From Rhodospirillales bacterium URHD0017 (GTDB lineage: Bacteria; Pseudomonadota; Alphaproteobacteria; Reyranellales; Reyranellaceae), in the NCBI GenBank assembly GCA_900110395.1, contig FODP01000015.1, positions 62,001-126,000 of the forward strand: 64,000 nucleotides of DNA, given 5' to 3'. A program made the position numbers and the translations under genes. Positions 8,711-26,378 of this stretch are shown one piece after another. Position 1 is the first letter of the stretch, and every line of letters begins with the position of its first letter. The notes under the pieces were generated by a model. That model searched no databases, had not been told where the DNA came from, and worked only from the letters and a program-made list of their open reading frames with translations.

Positions 8711-8806
8711 CCTCTCCCCCGCTAGGGGGAGAGGTTGGGTGAGGGGGCTACGCACGTCGATTCCCCCTCACCTAGCCTCTCCCCCAGCGGGGGAGAGGAA
8801 CATGAG
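8711..8806. repeat. Palindromic intergenic repeat, family A copy 1 (ugpB-ugpA gap)
   Basis: Two arms face each other around a short spacer: CCTCTCCCCCGCTAGGGGG plus GTTGGGTGAGGGGG on the left, and the complement CCCCCTCACCTAGCCTCTCC plus CAGCGGGGGAGAGG on the right. Each arm also contains a small internal palindrome. The same unit recurs at 26421-26529 and 48220-48402. It can form a long hairpin between ugpB and ugpA, where it could lower downstream expression relative to the binding protein, as REP elements do in other importer operons (inference). Confidence 0.85.
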
Positions 8807-17231: not shown

Positions 17232-17903
17232 CTACCGATTCGATAGCGCGTGCGCATTGCGCATGTCTTCCAGCGAGGCGAGCAGTGAGTCGGGATCGGG
17301 CCAGCGCGAGGGGTCGACGTCGCTGAAGGCGAAGGCGACGCGCGCGCTCGGCTCGACGACGAACACCGCAGGCACCGGCAGGCGCCAGATCGGCTCGTGG
17401 TGCATCGCCGGAAAGTCACGGCCGCGCGATCGATGGATGCGGACGTGTCCGGGCGAGAGCTCGTAGGTGAGCCCGCACATGCGGGCAAAGCCGTTGGCCG
17501 GATCGGCGAGCAGAGGATAGCGAACGCCGCGCTTGGCCGCCGTGCCCGCGATCAGCTCGCGCCCGCCCGGCATGACGCCGACCGCCGTGGCGCCCAGCGC
17601 TTCGATCGCCGGCCGTGCGTCCTCGAGCGCCAGCATGGTGAGCTCGCAATAGGGGCACCAGCCGCCGCGGAACAGCGCCAGCACCAGCGGCCCGCGATCC
17701 AGCAGCTCGCCCGAGGTCCAGATCCGGCCGGAACCGTCCTCCAGGACAAAGTCAGGCAAGGGGTCGCCGACACCGAGGCCGTCCTCCGCCACCCGCATCA
17801 TGCGCAGGCGGTCGAGTTCGTCCTCGATCTCGGCGCGCTCATGCGGTGGAAGCTCCGCCATGTGCCGGCGGCTGAGCTCGAGCAGCGTTTGGGACAGCGA
17901 CAT
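17232..17903 (-). CDS. Peroxiredoxin-like protein (PRX-like2/SelL-related), Cys form
   Basis: The 223-aa thioredoxin-fold protein has catalytic motif FRGGWC83-P-Y-C86. It begins MSLSQTLLELSRRHMAELPP, then GDPLPDFVLEDGSGR, and ends with an LPVPAVFVVEPSARVAFAFSDVDPSRWPDP block characteristic of PRX-like2. No signal peptide. A paralogue at 24532-25185 has a UGA codon exactly at position 83. I chose ATG 17903 by alignment with that paralogue. Divergent from the LysR gene, with palindromic operators in between, so the LysR protein probably regulates it. Reaction: thiol-dependent peroxide reduction is likely but untested. Confidence 0.88.
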   Translation of the reverse strand: MSLSQTLLELSRRHMAELPPHERAEIEDELDRLRMMRVAEDGLGVGDPLPDFVLEDGSGRIWTSGELLDRGPLVLALFRGGWCPYCELTMLALEDARPAIEALGATAVGVMPGGRELIAGTAAKRGVRYPLLADPANGFARMCGLTYELSPGHVRIHRSRGRDFPAMHHEPIWRLPVPAVFVVEPSARVAFAFSDVDPSRWPDPDSLLASLEDMRNAHALSNR

Positions 17904-22525: not shown

Positions 22526-23455
22526 TCAGCGGGCGCCGCGCCTCTGGAACAGTCCCACCGTCGTCAGCAGCCCGAGCGTGACCAGGCCGAGTCCGGTCAT
22601 CTGCAGCACGCTCGGGATTTCGCCGACGATGGGGATGCCGATCAGGACCGATACCGCCGGCACGATGGCGGGAAACAGCACAGCGCGGCTCACGCCCAGC
22701 AGCATCACCGCCTGGCTGTAGGCCACCATGGTGACGGCGCCCTGCAGGCCGCCCTGCACCAGACCCTGGAAGGCAAGCAGGCCGAGGGGCAGCGCAAGCA
22801 GGTGGGCCGTGCCGGCCAGGGCAAGGTAGGCGGGAGTTACGATCACGAACGAGAGGACGGAAACCACGGCCGTCGCGCGCAAGGCCGGCACGCGCCAATG
22901 GCGCAGCAACAGGGTGAAGCCCGCCCACAATATGCTCGAGGCAAAGAACATGAGATCGCCCAGCCAGGCGCGCTCGCCGCTCGGCCGGACCAGCCCGTCC
23001 CAGCCGATCAGCACGATGCCGGCCAGCACCACAGCGGCGCCGACCAGGTGGTTGCGGCCGACCCGCTCGCGCAGGAACAACGCCGCGCCGATGGTGCTGA
23101 CGATCGTCACCGTCGATGGCGCAATGACCGCGCCATGCGCCAGCGGTGCGAAGCCGTAGCCGCCGGTCTGCAGCAGCGCGAACGGCGCGCCGCCCAGCAG
23201 CGTCAGCACGAGGGCGCGCCGCCGGCCGATGCCGGCGAGGTCGAAGAAGCCGAAGCGCAGCAGCAGCGGCAGCATGATCGCACCGGCGACGATGAAGCGC
23301 GCGAAGATCATGTCGACCGCCAGCAGGCCGCCCAGGATGCCGGCGCGGGCCGCCACGAAGGACAGCGAGGCGCCCAGCGCCATGGTCGCGCCGCACAGGA
23401 AGCCCCAGCGTTCGCGTTTCGCTACGCGCGCCGTATCACTGGTCATATCGGCCAT
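22526..23455 (-). CDS. DMT-family (EamA) transporter
   Basis: The 309-aa protein has ten predicted transmembrane helices in two EamA repeats (GFLCGATMALGASLSFVAARAG and LGDLMFFASSILWAGFTLLLRHW). Probably a metabolite or drug exporter. I chose the ATG at 23455 (MADMTSDTAR); the longer form adds a non-hydrophobic segment. Divergent from the TetR gene, with a 24-bp imperfect palindrome between them, so TetR probably controls it too. Confidence 0.87.
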   Translation of the reverse strand: MADMTSDTARVAKRERWGFLCGATMALGASLSFVAARAGILGGLLAVDMIFARFIVAGAIMLPLLLRFGFFDLAGIGRRRALVLTLLGGAPFALLQTGGYGFAPLAHGAVIAPSTVTIVSTIGAALFLRERVGRNHLVGAAVVLAGIVLIGWDGLVRPSGERAWLGDLMFFASSILWAGFTLLLRHWRVPALRATAVVSVLSFVIVTPAYLALAGTAHLLALPLGLLAFQGLVQGGLQGAVTMVAYSQAVMLLGVSRAVLFPAIVPAVSVLIGIPIVGEIPSVLQMTGLGLVTLGLLTTVGLFQRRGAR

Positions 23456-23495: not shown

Positions 23496-23519
23496 ATTCT
23501 GTAGCGTGCGATACAAAAT
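23496..23519. promoter_or_regulatory. Candidate TetR operator
   Basis: A 24-bp imperfect palindrome with outer arms ATTcTGTA and TACAaAAT: 7 of 8 outer pairs match around the 8-nt centre GCGTGCGA. It lies between the divergent EamA (start 23455) and TetR (start 23536) genes. The 17 bp to the TetR start fits autorepression. Confidence 0.55.
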
Positions 23520-23535
23520 GGCGCTTACATGCGCC

Positions 23536-24126
23536 ATGGCCCGTCTGAAAGCCTTTGACGAGGGTCGCGCCCTCGACGTCGCCGTCGACTGCTTCTGGAT
23601 GCGCGGCTACGAGGCGACTTCGGTGCGCGATCTCGCCGACGCCATGGGGATCGGCGGCACCAGCCTGTACAACGCCTACGGCGACAAGCGCGCGCTCTTC
23701 GCGCGCTCGCTGGAGCGCTACGCGGAACGATCCATGCGCGATCGCATCGCCCGGCTGGAGGCGGCGCACAAGCCGAAGGAAGCCATCGCCGCCTTCATCG
23801 CCGAGATCATCGATCGTTCGCTGAAGGATCCCGACCGCAAGGGCTGCATGCTGGTGAACTCCGCACTCGACGTTGCGCCACACGATGCCGAGATCGGCAA
23901 GGTCGTCCGCGGCTATCTCGACGAGATTCGCGGCTTCTTCCAGCGCAACATCGAAGCGGCGCGCAAGGCGGGCCAGGTCCCGCGTCGCGTCGATCCCGAA
24001 GAGATGTCCGGCCATCTGCTGGGCGTGGTGGCGGGCATTCGCGTCCTGGCGCGGACCGGCGCCAAGCGGCGCCTCCTGGAAGGCGTGGCGCGGCCGGCCC
24101 TCCGGCTGCTCGAGGCGACGCGATGA
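23536..24126 (+). CDS. TetR/AcrR-family regulator
   Basis: The 196-aa repressor-type protein has an N-terminal HTH (ALDVAVDCFWMRGYEATSVRDLADAMGIGGTSLYNAYGDKRALFARSL). The C-terminal ligand domain contains DRKGCMLVNSALDVAPHD, a pattern with one Cys seen in the YxaF/RutR-like branch. It heads the operon with DUF1330, the UGA-containing peroxiredoxin-like gene and the GrdB-like gene, and is divergent from EamA. ATG 23536 (MARLKAFDEGR) is the best start; upstream codons overlap the operator. The inducer is unknown; electrophile or thiol stress is a reasonable guess given the operon. Confidence 0.88.
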   Translation: MARLKAFDEGRALDVAVDCFWMRGYEATSVRDLADAMGIGGTSLYNAYGDKRALFARSLERYAERSMRDRIARLEAAHKPKEAIAAFIAEIIDRSLKDPDRKGCMLVNSALDVAPHDAEIGKVVRGYLDEIRGFFQRNIEAARKAGQVPRRVDPEEMSGHLLGVVAGIRVLARTGAKRRLLEGVARPALRLLEATR

Positions 24127-24527
24127 TCGACCATCTCAACGCGCCGGTGCTCAAGGCGCTGCCCGACGACACGCCGGTCACCATGCTGAACCTGATGCGG
24201 TTTCGCGAGCGCTCGCTCGACGGCAACGGCAGCGGCTGGGATGCTTACCTGCGCTACAGCAAGCTCACCATCAGGCTGATCAAGGCACAGGGCGGCACGA
24301 TCGTCTGGGCTGGCGATGCCGAGGCCGTCGCGCTGGGCGCGCCCGACCGGCATCGTTGGGACTATGTCGCCCTGGTGCGCTATCCCTCGCGCGCCGCCTT
24401 TCTCGCCATGATGAATTCGCCGCAATACGCCGTGGCCAACGTCGAGCGCGAGAATGGCTGCGCCGACCACGCCATCGTCGCAATGCGCGAGACCTACAAC
24501 GGGCTCGGCTCTTCACCAAAGGAGTAG
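24123..24527 (+). CDS. DUF1330-family protein
   Basis: The 134-aa protein with a ferredoxin-like dimeric alpha/beta-barrel fold: VTMLNLMRFRE, the WDAYLRYSKLTIRLIKAQGGTIVWAGDAEAV core, and WDYVALVRYPSRAAFLAMMNSPQY. It overlaps the tetR stop by ATGA. The AAAGGAG Shine-Dalgarno sequence of the next gene sits within its last codons, showing tight operon structure. No enzymatic role is established for DUF1330. Confidence 0.85.
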   Translation: MIDHLNAPVLKALPDDTPVTMLNLMRFRERSLDGNGSGWDAYLRYSKLTIRLIKAQGGTIVWAGDAEAVALGAPDRHRWDYVALVRYPSRAAFLAMMNSPQYAVANVERENGCADHAIVAMRETYNGLGSSPKE

Positions 24528-24531
24528 GACC

Positions 24532-25185
24532 ATGTCATTGGCAGAAAAGCTGGCGGCGACCCGCGCCGCATCCGAGACACGCATTCCTCCCGACCGTCAG
24601 GCCATCATGGAGCGGGCGACTGAGGACCTGCGGCGATCGGGCATCCTCGACCGCATCGTGAAGGTCGGCAGCGCGGCGCCGTCGTTCGAGCTCACCGGCC
24701 ATGACGGCCGGCGCATCGACTCGAGCGAGCTGCTCGCCGGCGGTCCGATGGTCCTGTCCTTCTTCCGAGGATCCTGGTGACCCTACTGCCGGCATGAGCT
24801 GGATGCTCTGCAAAGCGTTTGCGCCGACGTCCTGGCCCTCGAGGCTTCCCTTGTCGTGATCTCGCCCGAACTGCCGGAGCGCACGGCGGACATGGCCGCC
24901 AAACAAAAGCTCACCTTCCCGATCGTATGGGACGAGATGTCGAGGGTGGCCGAGGCGTTCGGCCTCGCCTTTACGCTGCCCGACGACCTGCGGCAGGTCT
25001 ATCTCGGGTTCGGCAACGATCTTGCCGTCCGCAACGGCGATCCATCGTGGCGCCTGCCGATGCCAGCGCGCTTCGTGATCGACGGTGGCGGCATCGTGCG
25101 ATCGGTCGAAGCCGACCCGGACTACCGATTCCGCCCCGAGGCGGAAGCAACGCTCGAGGTCTTGCGAAAGGTCGTTGCCGGTTAG
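24532..25185 (+). CDS. Candidate selenoprotein: PRX-like2/SelL-related peroxiredoxin with Sec83
   Basis: Read through one in-frame TGA (24778-24780) this is a 217-aa protein. It starts MSLAEKLAATRAASETRIPP after an AAAGGAG Shine-Dalgarno sequence. GSAAPSFELTGHDGR and FFRGSW precede the UGA, followed by P-Y-C86-RHELDAL. The tail ISPELPERTADMA, FPIVWDEMSRVAEAFGLAF, WRLPMPARFVIDGGGIVRSVEADPDYRFRPE is intact to the TAG stop. The UGA is the first position of the family's C/U-x-x-C motif, and the paralogue at 17232-17903 has Cys at the same residue number, 83. No other lesion in 134 downstream codons. A hairpin with a G-first loop lies 15 nt after UGA. UxxC/UxxU selenoproteins are established for this family. 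A single nonsense mutation in a pseudogene is the alternative; the second UGA gene next door argues against it. Confidence 0.87.
24787..24812 (+). promoter_or_regulatory. Candidate bacterial SECIS hairpin, gene 1
   Basis: TGC (24787-24789) pairs with GCA (24810-24812). After a 1/2-nt internal loop, GGCAT (24791-24795) pairs with ATGCT (24803-24807, one G-U). The 7-nt apical loop GAGCTGG starts with G. The loop begins 15 nt after the UGA, at the edge of the known spacing range for bacterial SECIS elements (about 16-37 nt). Found by eye; not folded by computation. Confidence 0.65.
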
Positions 25186-25211
25186 GCGGCGCGACGGGAG
25201 GAGGATTGGCC

Positions 25212-26378
25212 GTGGTCAAGCGTCTCAGCGACATGCCGGAGGTCGAGGCCGCGCACCTGCGGCGCATCGAATGCCCGACCTATGACGACACGCCTGCGCT
25301 GGCCGGAAAGCCGCTCAGCGAGCGACGTGTCGTCCTCATTTCGACGGCCGGGCTGCACAGGCGTGGCGACCGGCCGTTCCGCCCCGGCGACGGCAGCTAT
25401 CGCGTCATCCCGGCCGACACGGCGGCCAACGCGCTGGTGATGAGCCACATCTCGGTCAACTTCGACCGCACCGGCTTCCAGCAGGACATGAATGTCGTCT
25501 TCCCGATCGACCGCCTGCGCGAGCTGGTGGCCGAGGGCAGCGTCGGTGCGATGGCGTCCGTGCACTATTCCTTCATGGGCGCCTTCCCGCCAGCCGCCGC
25601 CGAGCCGCATGCGCAGCACCTCGCCGGCCTCCTGAAGGCCGACCAGGTCGATGCGGCGCTCCTCGTCCCGGTTTGACCCGCCTGCACGCGCGCCGTGGGC
25701 GCGCTGGGCCATTTCCTCGAGCGGCAGGGCATTCCCACCACGGGTATCAGCCTTGTCCGTGAGCACACCGAGATCGTTCGCCCGCCGCGCGCGCTGTGGG
25801 TCACTTTCGAGCTCGGCCGGCCGCTCGGCATCCCCGACGACCCGCCGTTCCAGCGCCGTGTCGTCAAAGCCGCCCTCGACCTGCTCGAACGCACCGACAG
25901 CCCGCTGATCGCCGACTTCCCCGAACACGTGCAGGAGCCGGCCGACTTCAGCGGTTGGGCCTGTCCGATCAACCTCGCGCCCAGCGTGGTCGACTCGCTC
26001 ACGGGCGAGATCGACCGGCTCGCAACCTGGTACGACCGCGCCGTCGCGCGGCAAGGTCGCACCACAGTCGGCGTCTCGGGGCTCGACATGCCATCGGCCG
26101 GTGCGTTGGTCACGAAGGCATTGGAGGGGGTGCTGCCGTCGGCGCAGCGGCTCAAGGAAGCGATCGACGACCTGCGCGCCTACTACCTCGAGGCAGCGTC
26201 GGCCTTTCCCGATGCCGGCTCGGCCGTCACGCGCAAGAAGTGGTTCTGGGAGGAGACGAAGCTTGCCGCCGCGATGCTGGCCCTGCAGCCAAAGCTCGCG
26301 GCCAGCGACGACCAGCAGCACAAGATCCTCGGCAACCTGACCTTGATCCCGGCGACCGAACGGCACCGACTCGGCTAG
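25212..26378 (+). CDS. Candidate selenoprotein: GrdB-like (glycine/sarcosine/betaine reductase B family) with Sec155
   Basis: Read through one TGA (25674-25676) this is a 388-aa protein. It starts at GTG 25212 after a GGGAGGAGG Shine-Dalgarno sequence. Family blocks: RVVLISTAGLHRRGDRPF, SYRVIPADTAANALVMSH, SVNFDRTGFQQDMNVVFPID, then VDAALLVPV-U155-P-A-C158-TRAVGALGHFLE, followed by GIPTTGISLVREHTEIVRPP and WVTFELGRPLGIPDDPPFQ. In this family the residue at this position is Sec or Cys in a UxxC motif. The family includes clostridial GrdB; this aerobic-type homologue has no GrdA/GrdC partners nearby, so its substrate is unknown. The last about 150 aa (after residue 240, AACP-INLAPSVVDSL) are a C-terminal extension I cannot assign. 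Last gene of the TetR operon. Confidence 0.87.
25688..25704 (+). promoter_or_regulatory. Candidate bacterial SECIS hairpin, gene 2
   Basis: A perfect 7-bp stem GCGCGCC (25688-25694) / GGCGCGC (25698-25704) with loop GTG. The loop starts with G and begins 18 nt after the UGA codon. Spacing and the leading G agree with bacterial SECIS features. The high GC of the region means such stems can arise by chance, so this is supporting evidence only. Confidence 0.6.

Follow-up and report, generated by a model that had tools for sequence, protein, structure and literature searches.

Two adjacent genes in the window analysed here, the whole stretch of 64,000 nucleotides from Rhodospirillales bacterium URHD0017 (Reyranellaceae; contig FODP01000015.1, positions 62,001 to 126,000 of the forward strand; coordinates below are those of the window), almost certainly encode selenoproteins, both in-frame UGA codons being predicted to be decoded by SelB and the selenocysteine (Sec) tRNA, helped by a hairpin just downstream. 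Gene 1 (24532..25185, plus strand) encodes a peroxiredoxin-like protein (PRX) of 217 amino acids, and gene 2 (25212..26378, plus strand, with a GTG start at 25212) a GrdB/PrdB-like protein of 388 amino acids. Together with the genes for a TetR-family regulator and a DUF1330 protein which precede them they would form one operon for two selenoproteins, and the explanation which best accounts for the whole, to which we give slightly better than even chances, is a TetR-controlled operon serving inducible reductive detoxification.

As a sequence-only reading of this DNA had claimed, each gene holds a single in-frame TGA, which forms the U of a UxxC motif, and each frame runs on to a proper stop. 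The codon lies at 24778-24780 in gene 1 (U83, motif WUPYC) and at 25674-25676 in gene 2 (U155, motif VUPAC), in both cases as the sole in-frame stop ahead of a TAG. Orthologues were sought in 61 genomes, 37 of which, our own included, belong to the same genus. Within the genus, gene 1 has orthologues in 20 genomes (71-100% identity) and gene 2 has full orthologues in 24 (75-100% identity), each with exactly one TGA; a 25th match to gene 2, in G036, is a fragment without the TGA site and is left outside the 24. Because the TGA occupies the same codon in 20/20 gene 1 and 24/24 gene 2 orthologues, the alignments indicate that the in-frame TGAs at the UxxC sites are not due to chance. A check for decayed frames found no full-length genus orthologue of either gene with a stop elsewhere in frame. 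The ratio of non-synonymous to synonymous change (pN/pS), compared with 12 codons skipped, is 0.29 before and 0.33 after the UGA in gene 1 (189 pairs, 20 sequences) and 0.18 and 0.28 in gene 2 (212 pairs, 22 of the 24 sequences); the values are similar on both sides, and the stretch after the UGA is thus under purifying selection. Genome-wide reassignment of UGA was ruled out, as UGA also terminates 16/20 of the genus PRX orthologues.

A wider survey (E up to 1e-25) took in 289 genomes from across the class. Outside the genus, homologues of gene 1 were found in 36 genomes, and the codon, checked in all 36, is TGA in 11 and Cys in 25; in two of the 11 (G316 and G159) the match also spans a TAG at the gene end (query residue 216 or 215). 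In the 21 loci of the long GrdB-like gene covered outside the genus, the codon is TGA in 19 and Cys in two (G173 and G179). Alignment with Cys and Sec homologues, which had been suggested as a check, placed TGC or TGT exactly at the position of the UGA codon, and neither TAA nor TAG stands at the Sec site in any aligned row. A search of a plasmid collection returned only relatives of less than 60% identity.

All four of selA, selB, selC (tRNA-Sec) and selD are present in the genome, with scores of 565 bits for selA, 448.6 bits for selB, 377 bits for selD and 71.5 bits for tRNA-Sec, to which ARAGORN assigns the anticodon tca. A formate dehydrogenase (FDH) gene with one TGA (1432.9 bits) lies on the same contig as selB. 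Across the genus, selB scores over the cut-off in 36/37 genomes (the exception being G018) and a tRNA-Sec match above 70 bits was found in 35/37 (the exceptions being G007 and G018), where only high scores were counted, weaker matches to this RNA family occurring in all 14 control genomes and exceeding the cut-off in 5 of them. Outside the genus, selB was found in 11/11 genomes whose gene 1 homologue has the TGA as against 4/25 with only Cys forms (G282, G051, G129 and G071). The two genomes with Cys in the long GrdB-like gene gave no selB match, selB having been searched in only some of the other genomes with long GrdB-like matches. Loci outside the genus contained selA or selB in 9/22 cases around the long GrdB-like gene compared with 2/13 around PRX homologues, and this proximity fits what would be expected of selenoprotein genes tied to the Sec trait. 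The nine loci (L243, L244, L248, L249, L252, L255, L256, L257 and L261) come from other alphaproteobacterial families, have selA or selB at a distance of at most 19 kb, and often contain a gene for SelD or for an oxidoreductase-SelD fusion too; the locus labels were confirmed on one member for selB, one for selA and two for selD. The interpretation of the window genes as two adjacent selenoprotein genes is thus supported by the Sec machinery, the conserved TGA codon and the Cys homologues. Two further GrdB-like paralogues, about 30% identical and with an in-frame TGA, lie elsewhere in the genome (G000 C29:310164-311027 and C20:538807-539484; one match also contains a TAG), so that, counting FDH, there are perhaps five selenoprotein candidates in all.

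Downstream of each UGA lies a hairpin resembling a selenocysteine insertion sequence (SECIS). The sequence-only reading had described stem-loops with a G-first loop at 15 or 18 nt, and this description held for gene 2, whose hairpin (25688..25704, plus strand; GCGCGCC GUG GGCGCGC) has its GUG loop 18 nt after the UGA, and failed for gene 1, whose hairpin (24792..24811, plus strand; GCA-U-GAGC UGGAU GCUC-UGC, with a bulged U) has its UGGAU loop at 19 nt with the G in second place. Synonymous change, as observed over expected, is 0.71 across gene 1 and 0.43 in the 12 codons after the UGA (rank 9 of 206 such segments), and 0.73 across gene 2 and 0.32 after the UGA (rank 5 of 377); the lowest 12-codon segments start at codon 88 in gene 1 and at codon 154, beside the UGA, in gene 2. 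The gene 1 hairpin codons CAT, GAG, CTG, GCT and CTG show no synonymous change at all among the 20 orthologues, while the loop codon and the codon preceding CAT vary, and the four upper-stem pairs are kept in 21/21 sequences. In gene 2, double changes which keep the pairing occur at 4/6 consensus pairs (29 sequences), and a slightly different six-pair structure went beyond all 500 shuffles in three of five measures. When synonymous codons were shuffled over three segments, p fell below 0.05 for gene 1 in 2, 17 and 0 of 21 sequences, for gene 2 in 23, 11 and 2 of 24, and for the paralogues in 4, 0 and 0 of 5. Outside the genus, folds after the site average -10.5 kcal/mol in 10 Sec forms of gene 1 vs -4.5 in 14 Cys forms (one-sided Mann-Whitney p 0.0006, not corrected for relatedness), and the four upper pairs form in 9/10 Sec as against 2/14 Cys forms.

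In a first PRX tree of 52 rows all 31 Sec rows lie on one side of a single branch (96/95), and in a tree of the GrdB-like proteins (45 rows) both Cys rows lie on one branch. A second PRX tree (46 rows), to which eight more Cys loci and the Sec form of G231 had been added, left the Sec clade of the window intact (18 rows, 98/96). The added Sec form (L319), a distant homologue of 35% identity with the motif WUPYC and its TGA at the UPYC position, falls outside this clade and likely represents a separate Sec event. A single origin of Sec for the whole PRX family, as the first tree had suggested, was dropped, since the second tree needs another Sec change for L319. In both trees the branches are long and the root was placed at the midpoint, so that the directions of change are inferred.

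The second element of the finding is the regulatory setting. Between a divergently transcribed EamA-family transporter gene (22526..23455, minus strand; PF00892 over its cut-off) and the TetR gene (23536..24126, plus strand; PF00440 and PF16925 over their cut-offs) lies a 24-bp inverted repeat, ATTCTGTAGCGTGCGATACAAAAT (23496..23519, no strand), which ends 16 nt before the TetR ATG at 23536 and for which shuffling predicts 0.00 occurrences in the window; an alternative in-frame GTG upstream, at 23506, would overlap it. The TetR gene overlaps the DUF1330 gene (24123..24527, plus strand; PF07045 over its cut-off) by 4 bp, and gaps of 4 nt and 26 nt follow between DUF1330 and PRX and between PRX and the GrdB-like gene. 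EamA, being transcribed divergently, lies outside the operon proper. The association of the pair with TetR, DUF1330 and EamA, which had also been remarked upon, is conserved in relatives and goes with a common operator-like site; EamA adjoins TetR in many of them.

The repeat is very probably the binding site of the TetR protein, a prediction drawn from the pattern of conservation before the gene. Each of the 32 upstream regions scored has a site before TetR, its position constant to within 2 nt, matching at 19-24 of 24 positions vs 16 at most in shuffled upstream regions, the pattern having been drawn from those same sequences (L080 and L082 included; L178, whose TetR is cut at a contig end, left out). 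Thus the protein, with its TetR_N domain and a conserved palindrome before its gene, has a candidate operator of its own to which it is predicted to bind. When 42 loci (592 kb) were scanned with up to 4 mismatches allowed, 31 had the site, namely all 29 which contain TetR and its upstream region and two where it stands, without an intervening TetR, directly before PRX (G006) or before DUF1330-PRX (G007). Two sites were found in L079, where gene order is changed, and one extra match with 4 mismatches in each of L153 and L158. The 11 loci without a site comprise six TetR-less GrdB-like loci, the contig-end loci L178 and L179, the fragment L187, and L185 and L186 from other families. In G001 (L293) DUF1330 is absent from the operon and found elsewhere, where it follows the same site together with a HAD-like gene and adjoins a luciferase-like monooxygenase; in G011 (L308) it is EamA that is found elsewhere, with the site separating it from a glutathione S-transferase (GST). 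In G093, of another family, the space separating PRX from a divergent TetR of 60% identity contains a palindrome which matches the site with 3 mismatches. As the site also precedes selenoprotein, DUF1330 or EamA genes which have moved away from TetR, these arrangements support, at the level of sequence, a single regulon under one TetR-type repressor.

A genome-scale pattern search, allowing 2 mismatches and covering 23 of the 37 genus genomes and 14 others, gave matches in 19/37, with a reversed-pattern control giving 0-3 matches per strand and genome; in our own genome the window site was the only match and the control gave 1. Three candidates were rejected: tblastn over the 3 kb around the match in G005 (L301) revealed no gene of the module, the TetR adjoining that in G041 (L291) was only 32% identical, and in G043 the control matched as often or more. 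Further matches were found in G050, G006 C139 and G020 C160. Within the genus, genes 1 and 2 are adjacent in 9/20 carriers of gene 1 (our own window and 8 loci), 11 loci contain gene 1 without gene 2 adjacent (among them that of G036, at a contig end), and gene 2 stands behind TetR without gene 1 at 9/24 loci. The full gene set was found on three further contigs (L077, L078 and L079), a count to which L080 and L082 were not added. Outside the genus the PRX and GrdB-like genes were never together in the 35 loci covered.

The TxxC motif defines peroxiredoxins, and CPYC is the classical motif of glutaredoxins. PRX belongs to the AhpC/TSA peroxiredoxin-like family (PF00578, 89.3 bits vs a gathering score of 26), and its best-scoring solved relatives are peroxiredoxins. 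When its profile was aligned to the 2ywn sequence group, the Sec stood opposite the Thr of TxxC and the second Cys of UPYC opposite their Cys, which we take to be the peroxidatic Cys of peroxiredoxins; the Thr of a canonical peroxiredoxin is thus replaced by Sec. The sequence-only reading had referred to PRX-like2/SelL and GrdB-like families as ones which include Sec members. Both protein families are indeed known with Sec, and an assignment to SelL was ruled out, the SelL-related model NF040769 scoring 38.9 bits against a curated cut-off of 120.

The product of gene 2 matches PF07355 (32.4 bits vs a gathering score of 22) over residues 80-152 only, and all five NCBIfam reductase models it matches remain below their cut-offs, including the PrdB equivalog TIGR04483 (103.4 bits, cut-off 300), on the basis of which assignment to D-proline reductase was ruled out, and the GrdB subfamily TIGR01918 (44.8 bits, cut-off 65.45). 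No family was matched beyond about residue 230, and a profile search with E values up to 1 gave no relative of solved structure. On these scores gene 2 is classed as a member of a long GrdB/PrdB-like subfamily lying below all NCBIfam cut-offs. None of the partners PrdA, GrdE, GrdA and GrdC was found among the 8 neighbouring window proteins scanned, the relatives and the rest of the genome not having been searched.

Selenoproteins of both types have been reported before. The available text of two metagenomic studies, of the Sargasso Sea and the Global Ocean Sampling (GOS), describes Prx-like UxxC and PrdB UxxC selenoproteins (PMC1088965, PMC2398784), and both families reappear in that of a 2026 review, which also gives the peroxiredoxin-like family cd02970 with UxxS (PMC13188914). 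Gene 1 resembles the Prx-like thiol:disulfide oxidoreductase selenoproteins in its membership of PF00578, in having Sec first in UxxC and in its many Cys homologues, but it differs in having UPYC and in lying within an alphaproteobacterial TetR regulon. Gene 2 is homologous to the PrdB (D-proline reductase) and GrdB (glycine reductase) selenoproteins over approximately residues 30-230, with Sec in UxxC, whereas its 388 residues include an unclassified C-terminal part and no partner was found among the neighbours scanned. In adjacency and a likely joint function the genes recall other selenoprotein genes which lie side by side, namely grdA-grdB, prdB-prdC, frhA-frhD-hdrA, Prx/SelW-like, Prx/Prx-like, Prx-like/AhpD-like, SAO and Tso. 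Neither a Prx-like and PrdB/GrdB-like pair nor a TetR is named in section 9 of the review (PMC13188914) or in the GOS passage (PMC2398784), and a PRX/GrdB-like pair is absent from the neighbouring pairs named in the available text of PMC1088965, PMC2398784, PMC13188914, PMC5029168, PMC12013277 and PMC8124441. The earlier statement that no description of such a TetR-controlled pair was known agrees with our search, which among the matches listed found no description of the pair or its regulon in the open-access literature. A further related system is the fluoroacetate reductase operon farACEB, whose GrdB-like selenoprotein is proposed to cleave the C-F bond by Sec attack (PMC10838667). It too is an inducible operon, and it combines a transporter with a GrdB-like selenoprotein whose Sec has been proposed to attack an electrophilic carbon; unlike the window, it belongs to an anaerobe, includes a GrdE-like and a radical SAM protein and, in its four genes, has no Prx, DUF1330 or TetR (PMC10838667). 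What is new here is the 24-bp inverted repeat and its regulon-wide spread.

In the mechanism we propose, ligand-free TetR would sit on the inverted repeat and repress the operon as well as the divergent EamA exporter until released by a small molecule. Replacement of the Thr of TxxC by Sec would give PRX a UPYC selenol/thiol centre able to reduce disulfides or peroxides with thiols, and by analogy with GrdB the Sec of the gene 2 product may attack an electrophilic carbon or heteroatom bond as a nucleophile, to be resolved in turn by thiols or by PRX. That the module carries out inducible reductive detoxification of a reactive compound is a tentative proposal, made because of the TetR, the exporter and the genes which adjoin the site in single relatives (GST, HAD-like and monooxygenase). 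Unlikely as a complete account, and offered as speculation, is selenium-based inducible detoxification outside the amino-acid reductases, in which the compound sensed by TetR would be electrophilic or halogenated, the GrdB-like Sec would cleave it via a selenoether, the UPYC PRX would regenerate the enzyme with thiols and EamA would export the substrate or product.

The same two selenoproteins under the same TetR control could instead serve defence against peroxide or oxidative stress, with PRX as a thiol peroxidase and the GrdB-like protein as its redox partner. Prx-like UxxC selenoproteins are usually taken as redox proteins in the available text of the review (PMC13188914), and the best solved relatives of PRX point the same way; however, Sec in place of the Thr of TxxC is found as in thiol-disulfide oxidoreductases, and a TetR with an exporter would suit a small organic ligand more than a peroxide, so that we regard this alternative as rather unlikely. 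Far less probable is an operon feeding an amino-acid pathway with a GrdB-like component of a D-proline, glycine or betaine reductase: the 103 bits to TIGR04483 and the PF07355 match speak for it, but the five reductase models fall below their cut-offs and no PrdA, GrdE, GrdA or GrdC was found among the 8 neighbours scanned. We assign similarly little weight to an incidental adjacency of two independent selenoprotein genes, with TetR controlling the exporter only. Each selenoprotein does occur without the other, both TetR and the site are missing at 6/24 gene 2 loci, and the pair is not together in the 35 loci outside the genus; yet TetR precedes 18/24 gene 2 loci, our own included, and most lone PRX loci, in G006 and G007 the site leads straight into PRX and DUF1330-PRX respectively without an intervening TetR, two sites are present in L079, where gene order is changed, and the window genes are joined by the 4-bp overlap and the 4-nt gap. 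There is next to no probability that the UGAs simply terminate translation, or that they arose from sequencing errors or from decay into pseudogenes. They are in-frame stop codons, and downstream GTG or TTG codons are present, but their codon position is shared across 20 and 24 genomes with purifying selection on both sides, the homologues with a Cys codon come mostly from selB-less genomes, and no aligned row has TAA or TAG at the site.

Several observations weigh against a TetR-controlled two-selenoprotein operon for detoxification. As regards decoding, G018 carries both TGA genes, and selB and a tRNA-Sec match above 70 bits were not found in its assembly, which is 89% complete; no such tRNA-Sec match was found in G007, whose assembly is 73% complete. 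The long GrdB-like gene of G071 has an in-frame TAG at residue 273 in addition to its TGA, G033 has a 33-residue fragment of gene 2 and a distant PRX match with TAA, G012 has a 43-residue PRX-like fragment with TAA, and G029 has an extra PRX fragment of 41 residues; the fragments in the last three are possibly decayed or cut copies. As regards the hairpins, the 48 nt which follow the UGA in the window's gene 1 have another structure as their minimum-energy fold, this hairpin has no compensatory double change, and the outcome of its codon shuffles depends on the segment chosen; in gene 2 the double changes are all supplied by five paralogues, and the other two of the five measures were reached by 174 and 458 of 500 shuffles. 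As regards the regulon, the pair is facultative, gene 2 being adjacent in only 9/20 carriers of gene 1, 6/24 gene 2 loci have neither TetR, in the region covered, nor site, the GST, HAD-like and luciferase-like neighbours come from one relative each, and the scan allowing up to 5 mismatches also gave weaker matches, of 4-5 mismatches, in unrelated positions of other loci.

Some further features were noted. In G071 (L232 and L314) the Cys PRX homologue has a single in-frame TAG (query residue 173), as does the long GrdB-like gene (273), unlike the selB match of that genome, which has none. A Cys paralogue of PRX with the motif WCPYC, about 32% identical to the Sec form, lies 7 kb away in the window (17232-17903, minus strand), with SDR, patatin and divergent LysR genes as neighbours; its cluster is syntenic in several relatives, where a GrdB-like gene adjoins, with or without TetR. 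A GC-rich palindromic repeat, CCTCTCCCCC-N4-GGGGGAGAGG, is present in four copies in the window (at 8711, 26429, 48228 and 48371), where shuffling expects none, and the copy 3' of the GrdB-like gene sits inside longer inverted arms.

To our knowledge, no role has been established for most bacterial selenoproteins. Two of them surrounded by a conserved regulator, an operator-like site and an exporter provide a direct handle on this problem, as the inducer of the regulator would point to the class of substrate. The family also lends itself to study through its apparent gain of Sec from Cys, its Cys forms in selB-less genomes and the split copies of one regulon. If the selenium-based detoxification proposed above is true, it would constitute a new use of the GrdB family, independent of the partners found in glycine or proline reductase.

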